A stretch of 64,000 nt of DNA, taken from positions 307,777-371,776 of the forward strand of contig WTGP01000018.1 of the NCBI GenBank assembly GCA_011523505.1. The letters run 5' to 3'. This document shows positions 47,450 to 50,999 of the stretch, in pieces (the stretch's first letter is position 1; each line of letters opens with the position of its first letter). Below the pieces are notes generated by a model. The model had not been told where the DNA came from and did not search any database. It worked only from the letters and a program-made list of their open reading frames with translations. This DNA is from Gammaproteobacteria bacterium. Lineage in GTDB: Bacteria; Pseudomonadota; Gammaproteobacteria; Steroidobacterales; Foliamicaceae. A program made the position numbers and the translations under genes.

Positions 47450-48178
47450 ATGTCCGAGCGTCTCGCCAACAAGATCGTGCTCGTCAGCGGCGCGGGCCCG
47501 GCGGTCTCTGCCGCCGTTGCGCGCCGTGGACTGGAGTGCGGCGCCGAGGCCGTTCTGGTCGCCCACGATCCCGGGTCCAGGGAAGCCGCCGAATCAGCCC
47601 TTGCCGGAACCGGTGCGCACCTGGTGGCGCACAATCGCGCCGAGCCGCGCGCCTGGCCGGAGCTGTACGACCGCCTGGAATCGGAGTCGCGGCTGCCCGA
47701 CGTCCTGGTGAACGGTTGTTATGCGCACCATGCCGGCTCATTGGGGGAGACCTCGCTCGAGCAGTTCAGCCAGGCGCTACAAGGCAACCTGACGGCCGCT
47801 TTTTTCGGAACGCAGACCGCCGTGGTGCGCTTGCGGGCGGCGGGCCGCAAGGGCGCGATCATCAACATGAGTTCGGTCTTTGCGGACCGCGCGCTGCCCG
47901 GCACCGCCGCCTATGCCGCCAGCGCCGGCGGAATCCGGTCGCTCAGCAAGTCCGCGGCGCTCGCCTGCGCCGAGGCCGGCGACGGCATTCACATACACAC
48001 CGTGTTGACCGGGCACTACGAAGGAGGACCGGACCTGCCGGCCGGCGGAAACTCGTTGCTTGACGGCAGGATCAGCGTCGGGGAAGTCGCGGCCCTGGTC
48101 GTACAGCTTGCGGGCGACGGCGCCACCTATACGCACGGCTCGGCCGTCATGCTGGACGGAGGCTTATGGATTTCCTGA
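47450..48178 (+). CDS. Short-chain dehydrogenase-like protein, probably catalytically inactive
   Basis: This is a 242-aa SDR-fold protein that has lost key residues. The cofactor motif TGxxxGxG reads SGAGPAVSA, the NNAG motif reads NGCY, and in the active site the tyrosine (Tyr155 in AAYAASAGG) is kept but the lysine at +4 is Ala159. The serine in INMSSVF remains. It overlaps the next, canonical SDR gene by 13 bases. A pseudo-subunit partnering an active SDR is the simplest reading, as known for BbsC/BbsD of anaerobic toluene degradation. Function unknown. Confidence 0.85.
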   Translation: MSERLANKIVLVSGAGPAVSAAVARRGLECGAEAVLVAHDPGSREAAESALAGTGAHLVAHNRAEPRAWPELYDRLESESRLPDVLVNGCYAHHAGSLGETSLEQFSQALQGNLTAAFFGTQTAVVRLRAAGRKGAIINMSSVFADRALPGTAAYAASAGGIRSLSKSAALACAEAGDGIHIHTVLTGHYEGGPDLPAGGNSLLDGRISVGEVAALVVQLAGDGATYTHGSAVMLDGGLWIS

Positions 48179-48966
48179 ACGACACGGCCGGACACGGCGA
48201 ACCCGGGCGGCTGGCCGGCAAGCGGGTGCTCATTACCGGCGCCACTTCCGGAATCGGGCGCGGCTGCGCCATGCACATGGCCGAGGAAGGCGCGCGCCTG
48301 ATCTTTACCGGCCGCAACGAGGAGGGAGCGGCCGAGACATTGCGCATGGTCCAGGAGGTAGCGCCCGAAGCCGAAATTGAATTCGTCCGCCAGGACGTCA
48401 CCCTGGAAGCGGACTGGACACGACTTTATGACCGGGTGCGCGAGGTCTGGGGCGCCATGGACGTGCTGTTCAGCAATGCCGGCGACGCCAAGCTGGGGCC
48501 GCTCGAGGACGTGACGCCCGAGGACCTGGATTTTCTTTACAAGGTCAACGTGGAAGGCCAGTTCATCGGCCTTCGCGACGGCCTGCCGCTGATGGCCCCG
48601 GGGGGAAGCATCATCGTCATGTCGTCGCGGGCGGGGCTGCGCGGCTTCCCGCACGGCACGGCCTACACGTCGGCCAAGGGCGCGCTGACTGCCCTGACCA
48701 AGGTCGTTGCCGCCGAGGCCGCTGCGCTGGGCACCGGGATACGGGTAAACTCGGTGCATCCGGGTCTCGTCTGGACGGAAAGCGTGGAGCGCGTGCTGAA
48801 GGGACGCGTGGAGGAGTTGCGCCCCAAGATGGAAGCCACCGTGCCGATGCACAAGATCGGGCATCCGCGCGATGTCGGCGATCTGGTCTGCTACCTGTCC
48901 AGCGACGATTCCCGCCACATAACGGGGGCCGAGCTGTCCATAGACGGGGGAATGGCGGCCCAATAG
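48166..48966 (+). CDS. Short-chain dehydrogenase/reductase
   Basis: This is a 266-aa classical SDR. The cofactor motif is TGATSGIGRG, then NAGDAKLG, the serine in IVMSSRAG and the Tyr167/Lys171 pair in TAYTSAKGALTAL. GRNEEGAAETL after strand 2 has an arginine that could favour NADP, but this is not certain. The C-terminus SIDGGMAAQ is typical. It overlaps the degenerate SDR gene and is followed after 19 bases by a methyltransferase gene. Substrate unknown. Confidence 0.92.
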   Translation: MDFLNDTAGHGEPGRLAGKRVLITGATSGIGRGCAMHMAEEGARLIFTGRNEEGAAETLRMVQEVAPEAEIEFVRQDVTLEADWTRLYDRVREVWGAMDVLFSNAGDAKLGPLEDVTPEDLDFLYKVNVEGQFIGLRDGLPLMAPGGSIIVMSSRAGLRGFPHGTAYTSAKGALTALTKVVAAEAAALGTGIRVNSVHPGLVWTESVERVLKGRVEELRPKMEATVPMHKIGHPRDVGDLVCYLSSDDSRHITGAELSIDGGMAAQ

Positions 48967-48985: not shown

Positions 48986-50080
48986 ATGCCTTTGATGGAA
49001 GTCGATACCAGCCAGGCGCTGAAACGGGAAAACGCCACCATCCTGCCCGAACTCGCCAGCCGCGAGGACGAAAGTTACCTGGATTTCGTCGAAAGCCTGC
49101 GCTCGTTCGTGCTGGACGGCATGCAATTCGACCAGCAACTCGCGACCCGCACGGCACACCTGGAGGACACCTCCGAACCGCCGGCGGAACGGCTCGAGAA
49201 GGTGCGCGAAATCGCCAGGGACATGCCGGTCGCGCGGGTGCGCGACCGCCTGATGCGCTCGCAGCAGGAAATGAAATGGCGGCGCATCGTGAGCTCGCTG
49301 GACGCGCGCCGCGACATACACCTCGACCGGCTCAAGTCCGCCGAGGGGCGCGGCCCGGCCCGGCTGGAGCTGGACCCGGGCTTCGAGCCGCCGGAATACG
49401 CCAACGTGCATTTCCACCTGCAGCCGGACGGATACCACAAGGACCCGCTGGCGGGATTCCGCTATCACTACGGGACCAAGGTCTTCTTCGTCGGCGACAA
49501 CGACAAGGACCAGTTGCACGCCTCTCTGGTGAACAATCACCTTCCGTCGCCGGCGGACGGCCGCGTAGAGCGGATTCTCGACCTGGCCTGCTCGGTCGGG
49601 CAAAGCACCACGGCCCTGAAGCAGAGGTTCCCGCAGGCGGACGTGACCGGCATCGACCACTCCGAGCCGATGCTGCGCTGCGCCCACCACCGCGCCGTGG
49701 AGCTGGGCATAGACGTGTGCTTTTCCCAGCGGCTGGTCGAAAACACCGGCTATGACGACAACAGCTTCGATATGGTCTTCTCCTTCATCCTGTTCCACGA
49801 GATTCCGACGCGGATCATTCGCGAGACCCTGGCGGAAGTGAGCCGGGTGCTGCGGCCGGGCGGGATGTTCGCGGTCTACGACTTCATGATGGCCAGCGGC
49901 ATGACGCCGGCCCAGCTCTATCACCGCCATTTCGATTCACGCCATAACGGCGAGGCGTACGGCGACGACTTCTGCTACACGGATTTCAACGGACTGCTCG
50001 AGGAATTCGGCTTCGTCGAGGCGGCGCCCGGCAAGCACCTGGGCACGACCCAGGTCTGGTACGCAACCCTACCCGGCTAG
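48986..50080 (+). CDS. Class I SAM-dependent methyltransferase with a long N-terminal domain
   Basis: This is a 364-aa protein. The C-terminal half is a class I methyltransferase: motif I ILDLACSVGQSTTALKQRFP, then VTGIDHSEPMLRCAHHRA, FDMVFSFILFHEIPTR and RVLRPGGMFAVYDF. The first 190 residues are a separate, mostly charged and helical region I do not recognise, with a conserved-looking FRYHYGTKVFFVGDNDKDQL before the Rossmann fold. It lies between the SDR pair and a small unknown gene. Substrate unknown. Confidence 0.85.
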   Translation: MPLMEVDTSQALKRENATILPELASREDESYLDFVESLRSFVLDGMQFDQQLATRTAHLEDTSEPPAERLEKVREIARDMPVARVRDRLMRSQQEMKWRRIVSSLDARRDIHLDRLKSAEGRGPARLELDPGFEPPEYANVHFHLQPDGYHKDPLAGFRYHYGTKVFFVGDNDKDQLHASLVNNHLPSPADGRVERILDLACSVGQSTTALKQRFPQADVTGIDHSEPMLRCAHHRAVELGIDVCFSQRLVENTGYDDNSFDMVFSFILFHEIPTRIIRETLAEVSRVLRPGGMFAVYDFMMASGMTPAQLYHRHFDSRHNGEAYGDDFCYTDFNGLLEEFGFVEAAPGKHLGTTQVWYATLPG

Positions 50081-50085
50081 GTCCA

Positions 50086-50427
50086 GTGAGCAAAGGCCCT
50101 TCCGGGCAGACGCCGGAGGGCGGCGCGCCCCTGGTGGGCGACTATCCGGTCTATTTCAAGGACCCGGTGCAGGATGCGATGATGAACATGATCCTGGAAC
50201 TGAGCGCCCAGCTCTGGATGAGCATGGACCGCCTGTACGCGCTGGAAGACCTCCTCGCCCGCCAGGGCATAGTGACCGCCGCCGCCCTGGACGGCTACCG
50301 GCCCGACGCGGAGCGGGCCAAGGCCTTGCGGGCGCGGCGCGAGCGTTTCACCCACGATATCCTGCGCGACCTCAAGTCGCTTACGGAAGGGGCGGCGTCC
50401 ACTCCGGCGGGATCGGGCAAGGAGTAG
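50086..50427 (+). CDS. Hypothetical small protein
   Basis: This 113-aa protein has no recognised family. It starts with GTG five bases after the methyltransferase stop and ends five bases before the AhpD-like gene, so it belongs to that operon. The middle is a long predicted helix rich in methionine and leucine (AMMNMILELSAQLWMSMDRL, then YALEDLLARQG), flanked by flexible Gly/Pro/Ser ends. There is no signal peptide. It may be an accessory or interaction subunit for its neighbours; that is inference only. Confidence 0.7.
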   Translation: MSKGPSGQTPEGGAPLVGDYPVYFKDPVQDAMMNMILELSAQLWMSMDRLYALEDLLARQGIVTAAALDGYRPDAERAKALRARRERFTHDILRDLKSLTEGAASTPAGSGKE

Positions 50428-50432
50428 GAATC

Positions 50433-50999
50433 GTGGCCCGCCTGCCCTCGCTGCCCGAGCAGGCCGACCTGGCCGATGTGTTCCGCCGCTTCCCGCTGGG
50501 CGTCAAGTCCCTTTGCGAATACACCGACGACCTGCTGCGAGGGCCCTCGCCGTTCACCGTGGGCGAGCGCGAATTCATCGCCGCCTACGTGTCCGGCATC
50601 AACGCCTGCAACTACTGCCATGGCGCCCACAGCATCATCGCGGAGCTGCACGGCATCGACGGGGACTTGCTCGAGAACGTGCTGAACGACCCTGCCGGCG
50701 CCGGAGTGGAGCCGAAGATGCTGCCGGTGCTGGATTACGTGCGCAAGCTCACGGAGGCCCCCGCGCGGCTGACCGATGCCGACGCGCAACGGGTCTTCGA
50801 TGCCGGCTGGAGCGAGGAGGCGCTGTATCACGCGATCTCGGTCTGCGCGATCTTCAATTTCATGAACCGCATCGTCGAGGGCTGCGGAGTCGAGTCCAAC
50901 CCGGCCATCCGCGACACCCAGAAGGAGCGGCACTCCGCGATGCGCGACGAGCCGCGGCCCTACACGCTGTTCGCACGCACTATCGGCGCTTTCGACTGA
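50433..50999 (+). CDS. AhpD-like / carboxymuconolactone decarboxylase family protein
   Basis: This is a 188-aa alkylhydroperoxidase-like protein. The redox motif CxxC-H-x-x-H is present in AYVSGINACNYCHGAHSI, as in the peroxidase-related CMD subfamily. PSPFTVGEREFIAAYV before it is also typical. It probably reduces peroxides or acts as a disulfide redox partner in the cytoplasm. It is the last gene of the five-gene plus-strand run and ends before two tandem hairpins. Confidence 0.88.
   Translation: MARLPSLPEQADLADVFRRFPLGVKSLCEYTDDLLRGPSPFTVGEREFIAAYVSGINACNYCHGAHSIIAELHGIDGDLLENVLNDPAGAGVEPKMLPVLDYVRKLTEAPARLTDADAQRVFDAGWSEEALYHAISVCAIFNFMNRIVEGCGVESNPAIRDTQKERHSAMRDEPRPYTLFARTIGAFD

Follow-up and report, generated by a model that had tools for sequence, protein, structure and literature searches.

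At the centre of this study are two overlapping genes of short-chain dehydrogenases/reductases (SDRs), here named genes A and B, and the three genes that follow them, all on one strand of a 64,000-nucleotide stretch of DNA (the window) from a gammaproteobacterium that is probably sponge-associated (Table 1). An earlier sequence-only reading had described a full-length, open pseudo-SDR frame overlapping a canonical SDR by 13 nt, and the ORF coordinates are exactly as it gave them. It had also noted that the first protein keeps the active-site Ser and Tyr155 but carries Ala159 for the catalytic lysine, SGAGPAVS for the glycine-rich motif and NGCY for NNAG, all of which are borne out. The gene overlap and the GGAGG sequence ahead of gene B would be expected to aid balanced production of the two proteins; one locus of the genus (L006) has an extra in-frame ATG 24 nt upstream. 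No Rfam family was found, and promoter-like and terminator-like sites were not above expectation.

Table 1. Genes and sequence features of the A/B locus (positions in the window).
Feature	Position	Strand	Remarks
Gene A, pseudo-SDR	47450..48178	+	ATG start, 242 aa, full-length ORF; SDR fold
Degenerate TGxxxGxG (SGAGPAVS), gene A residues 13-20	47486..47509	+	SGAGP and Ser20 invariant across genus
NGCY instead of NNAG, gene A residues 88-91	47711..47722	+	NGC invariant across genus
YAASA, gene A residues 155-159	47912..47926	+	Tyr155 retained, catalytic Lys replaced by Ala159; within helix F (153-176)
GGAGG, Shine-Dalgarno-like	48158..48162	+	Within gene A 3' end, 3 nt before gene B start; putative function
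Gene A/gene B overlap, 13 nt	48166..48178	+	Position identical in 7/7 genus genomes with both genes
Gene B, canonical SDR, proposed catalytic subunit	48166..48966	+	ATG start, 266 aa
SAM-dependent methyltransferase	48986..50080	+	Pfam Methyltransf_25; ~190-aa N-terminal extension matching no known family
113-aa protein, no known family	50086..50427	+	No NCBIfam or Pfam match
AhpD/carboxymuconolactone-decarboxylase-like protein	50433..50999	+	TIGR01926, 2.3e-22; last gene of the cassette

Both proteins belong to the SDR superfamily by fold, gene A matching Pfam adh_short_C2 at 3.8e-23 and gene B an SDR family at 5e-59; the NCBIfam matches listed for gene A all lie far under their curated cut-offs. 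Gene B has every motif of an active classical SDR (TGATSGIG, SNAG, Ser153/154, Tyr167 and Lys171), with TGATSGIG, SNAG, SS and YTSAK invariant across the genus, and its nearest solved structures are the R-specific and Ralstonia alcohol dehydrogenases. Gene A lacks the TGxxxGxG, NNAG and Ser-Tyr-Lys signature of such enzymes, and its substitutes for them are themselves conserved in the genus, as are Asn113, Ser142 and Tyr155, which it still possesses. Three further losses were detected: Asp of the adenine-site D-V pair has become Asn62, Pro of the P-G motif after strand beta6 has become Thr187, and the segment of the substrate lid has been shortened. The AlphaFold2 model of gene A (mean pLDDT 91.3) places helix E at residues 103-130 and helix F at 153-176, superimposes on the best SDR structures with TM-scores of about 0.84-0.91, and has no helix between the strand at 180-187 and the helix at 210-221, whereas gene B is predicted to have lid helices at 205-211 and 215-224. 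Among the other SDR-like proteins checked in the source genome, 19 of 20 keep YxxxK. One SDR of this genome (L121:734-1546, C53:145766) has GAAAN at that site with an intact G motif and may belong to another, Tyr-less group of SDRs. Contig C45 (L012, L109) carries two more adjacent SDR gene pairs, and both members of each are intact.

Eight other genomes of the genus were available for comparison. Gene A is found in seven of them, among these a 3.1-Mb genome in a single contig, and is missing from the eighth, G004; one of the seven copies is truncated by the end of its contig. The seven complete copies, counting that of the window, are 78-96% identical to the window's, and every one keeps SGAGP, Ser20, NGC, Ser142, Tyr155 and Ala159, so Ala159 and the degenerate G motif, whose conservation the sequence-only reading had proposed to check, are conserved across the genus. 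Since YxxxK is retained by nearly all other SDR-like proteins of the source genome and seven more assemblies of the genus encode the same protein, the losses in gene A are due neither to chance nor to sequencing error; an assembly error as the cause of its odd motifs is ruled out by the agreement of eight genomes. Genes A and B are present together in seven genomes of the genus and absent together from G004, which is 94% complete.

Pairwise dN/dS values between genus copies are mostly 0.07-0.15 for gene A (range 0.04-0.25) and mostly 0.02-0.09 for gene B. The codon comparisons thus point to purifying selection on gene A, a conclusion that holds and that answers the concern, raised at the outset, that selection on this gene might be relaxed. 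Its distribution along the gene is uneven. Overall pN/pS of gene A is 0.177, but in the G-motif region it is 0.28 against 0.037 for gene B, making the cofactor region about sevenfold looser in gene A, and across beta6 and the lid it is 0.275 against 0.103. Helix F is the most constrained region of gene A, with a pN/pS of 0.016 (0.000 in gene B). In SDRs, the dimer interface consists chiefly of helices E and F. Taken together, the regional contrast indicates that gene A is relaxed at the cofactor site and frozen where SDR subunits normally pack, although the near-invariance of helix F exceeds chance over the whole gene only modestly, as 3.7% of shuffles gave a stretch as low.

No close homologue of gene A was found outside the genus, either among 396 genomes of the order or by profile in 398 genomes of the phylum, and none with an intact YxxxK lysine; sampling beyond the order was thin, comprising these 398 genomes and a pattern scan of one collection. 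A plasmid search gave distant matches alone, at 35% identity or less. Because a profile of the pseudo-SDR family (A2) separated poorly, matching SDRs in 386 of the 396 genomes, wider pairs were sought through the partner, gene B. A profile of the B clade, searched against 336 genomes of the order, recovered 13 members, spread over 12 genomes. A pseudo-SDR lies immediately upstream of ten of them (seven in the genus, two in G010, one in G048), and the other three (G009, G024 and G037) have an intact SDR there, with a 4-nt overlap. The pairing with a B-type SDR recurs in three more instances, drawn from two further families of the order. In the first G010 pair, a 216-aa pseudo-SDR, in which LAAGS replaces YxxxK, overlaps a B-like SDR that is 46% identical to gene B, and is preceded by genes for an MFS transporter, a small protein (40% identical) and a methyltransferase (57% identical to that of the window); the second lies on another contig and overlaps by 4 nt. 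In G048, from the third family, a pseudo-SDR with TCAAA and NAAQ stands beside a B-like SDR. The YxxxK replacements in these further pseudo-SDRs (LAAGS, TCAAA and RCAAE) mean that the Tyr has been lost in three different ways, and the shortened lid is common to all four pseudo-SDR lineages. MFS transporters that are 39% identical to each other are encoded directly upstream of the pseudo-SDR in G048 (L133:11396-12769) and G010 (L126:9409-10710), which may hint that the substrate is imported.

In a maximum-likelihood tree of 70 SDRs, the pseudo-SDRs form one clade (support 100/98) and the B-type SDRs another (100/99), with the G010b and G048 members as sisters in both. When the motif and loop columns were removed the B clade stayed at 100/99 but the pseudo-SDR clade dropped to 80/54, so that independent losses are possible. 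A single origin of the pseudo-SDRs thus appears likely but is not secure, given their long branches. The intact upstream SDR (S1) of G037, G009 and G024 is not sister to the pseudo-SDR clade in the tree, and a common clade was not rejected (p-AU 0.115). Three genomes of family f2 carry tandems of three intact SDRs, S1-S2-S3 (L127:5521-7890, L128:7287-9664 and L129:6572-8950), in which S1 and S2 overlap by 4 nt and S2 belongs to the clade of gene B; it is possible that they picture the state preceding catalytic loss.

The reading that we favour, and regard as probable, is that gene A encodes a non-catalytic pseudoenzyme subunit of an SDR hetero-oligomer with B, most likely of the form A2B2. The case for physical association is made by analogy and by the concentration of constraint in the interface helix. 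Under this proposal, gene A would have arisen from the upstream SDR of a tandem pair; NAD(P) binding, the substrate lid and the catalytic lysine would then have been lost, while the protein held on to its SDR fold and to the interface of helices E and F. Its product would assemble with B, the catalyst, and may stabilise it, position its active-site loops or tune its specificity. Against the A/B hetero-oligomer it can be said that homotetrameric SDRs require no partner and B looks complete alone, that a shared operon does not imply binding, and that active SDRs also normally show strong constraint in helix F.

Several known systems offer precedents of differing closeness. BbsCD, to which the sequence-only reading had pointed, is described (doi 10.1111/febs.16216, cited in PMC10818641) as a bacterial short-chain alcohol dehydrogenase whose heterotetramer includes inactive pseudoenzyme subunits. 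The A/B locus shows the adjacent genes for one degenerate and one intact SDR that are expected of a BbsCD-type pair, and BbsCD is a fair analogy for mechanism. The analogy does not extend to the pathway: BbsCD acts in anaerobic toluene degradation, the A/B operon holds other genes (for the methyltransferase, the small protein and the AhpD-like protein), and no protein of the glycyl-radical enzyme family PF02901 is present in the source genome, which excludes the toluene pathway within the limits of a genome that is 95% complete. BbsD, without BbsC, is among the 60 best PDB matches of one pseudo-SDR relative, and BbsC is not named among the 60 best of gene A or of two relatives. Human mitochondrial ketoacyl reductase (HSD17B8/CBR4) has two kinds of subunit, each an intact NAD(P)-binding SDR, and neither is known to be a pseudoenzyme to the degree of gene A. 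This enzyme is a two-SDR heterotetramer (PDB 4cql, 4cqm), and its chains rank near the top in fold comparisons with gene A, one of its subunits being the top match, although ordinary SDRs score almost equally. The solved sequence relative nearest to both A and B is the Lactobacillus R-specific alcohol dehydrogenase (PDB 1nxq, 4rf2), but this is a single active SDR with YxxxK and the G motif intact. Plant benzaldehyde synthase consists of two Rossmann-fold proteins, alpha and beta, neither of which is active by itself, whereas a 1:1 mixture of the two has activity (PMC8924275; PDB 9pzk); it is a plant peroxisomal enzyme, but the second G010 pseudo-SDR weakly resembles its beta subunit in sequence. 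In trypanosomatids, a dead paralogue of deoxyhypusine synthase joins a heterotetramer and raises activity 3000-fold (PMC3663545), a likeness in mechanism only since the protein family is unrelated.

Halohydrin dehalogenases have the SDR fold with a Ser-Tyr-Arg triad and no cofactor site. By comparison with them, gene A might be a cofactor-independent enzyme that uses its Ser and Tyr for other chemistry, taking part in one pathway with B but not binding to it. The invariance of Asn113, Ser142 and Tyr155 in the genus would suit such an enzyme, and the conservation of the NGCY and SGAGP replacements is what a new binding site would show. However, the position of the lysine, Arg in halohydrin dehalogenases, is Ala159 in gene A, the relatives in G010 and G048 have dispensed even with the Tyr, the lid is missing in all four lineages and the G-motif region of gene A evolves fast, all of which make this alternative unlikely. 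A regulatory or chaperone-like role, in which A would help B to fold or act as a sensor and not be a stoichiometric subunit of the mature enzyme, accords with the invariant pairing and with the position of A upstream of and overlapping B, as for an assembly partner that is made first; since the constraint on gene A peaks in the SDR interface helix, a stable SDR-SDR contact fits better, and we consider this role quite unlikely. That gene A is a decaying duplicate whose function has gone is strongly disfavoured, and the dN/dS values led us to reject it. In its favour are the missing catalytic motifs and a cofactor region under looser constraint than that of gene B, but the frame is open in all genomes, overall pN/pS is low with pairwise dN/dS near 0.1, the losses are identical in every A-bearing member of the genus, helix F is almost frozen, parallel pairs exist in other families, and no frameshifted or absent A was seen next to an intact B.

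Few enzyme families are as large as the SDRs, nearly all of which are, to our knowledge, treated as homo-oligomers; BbsCD was the only bacterial SDR with dead subunits that we found. Going beyond the A/B hetero-oligomer itself, there is perhaps an even chance that the pseudo-SDRs are a new bacterial family of subunits, which would have arisen once, been co-inherited with a dedicated clade of catalytic SDRs in several families of one order, and formed obligate hetero-oligomers; the metabolic module to which they belong would, in two families, also comprise a methyltransferase and a small protein without a known family. The occurrence of intact (G037, G009, G024) and dead (G010, G048 and the present genus) upstream partners beside related B-type SDRs would offer a route to trace how catalysis can be lost and the subunit retained. 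Annotation by family match would label such pseudo-SDRs as active oxidoreductases.

The methyltransferase gene accompanies A and B in seven genomes of the genus, and both it and the AhpD-like gene have close orthologues in the same seven A/B genomes and none in G004. Nearly every methyltransferase locus that was examined has a gene for a small protein next to that of the methyltransferase. Genomes of the genus contain between three and six matches to the methyltransferase at 1e-60, itself counted, and these paralogues nearly always stand beside a small protein of about 110-130 aa without a Pfam family (48986-50427 in the window; L122, L123, L124, L125, L126, L130 and L131), so that the two genes together look like an undescribed two-gene module.
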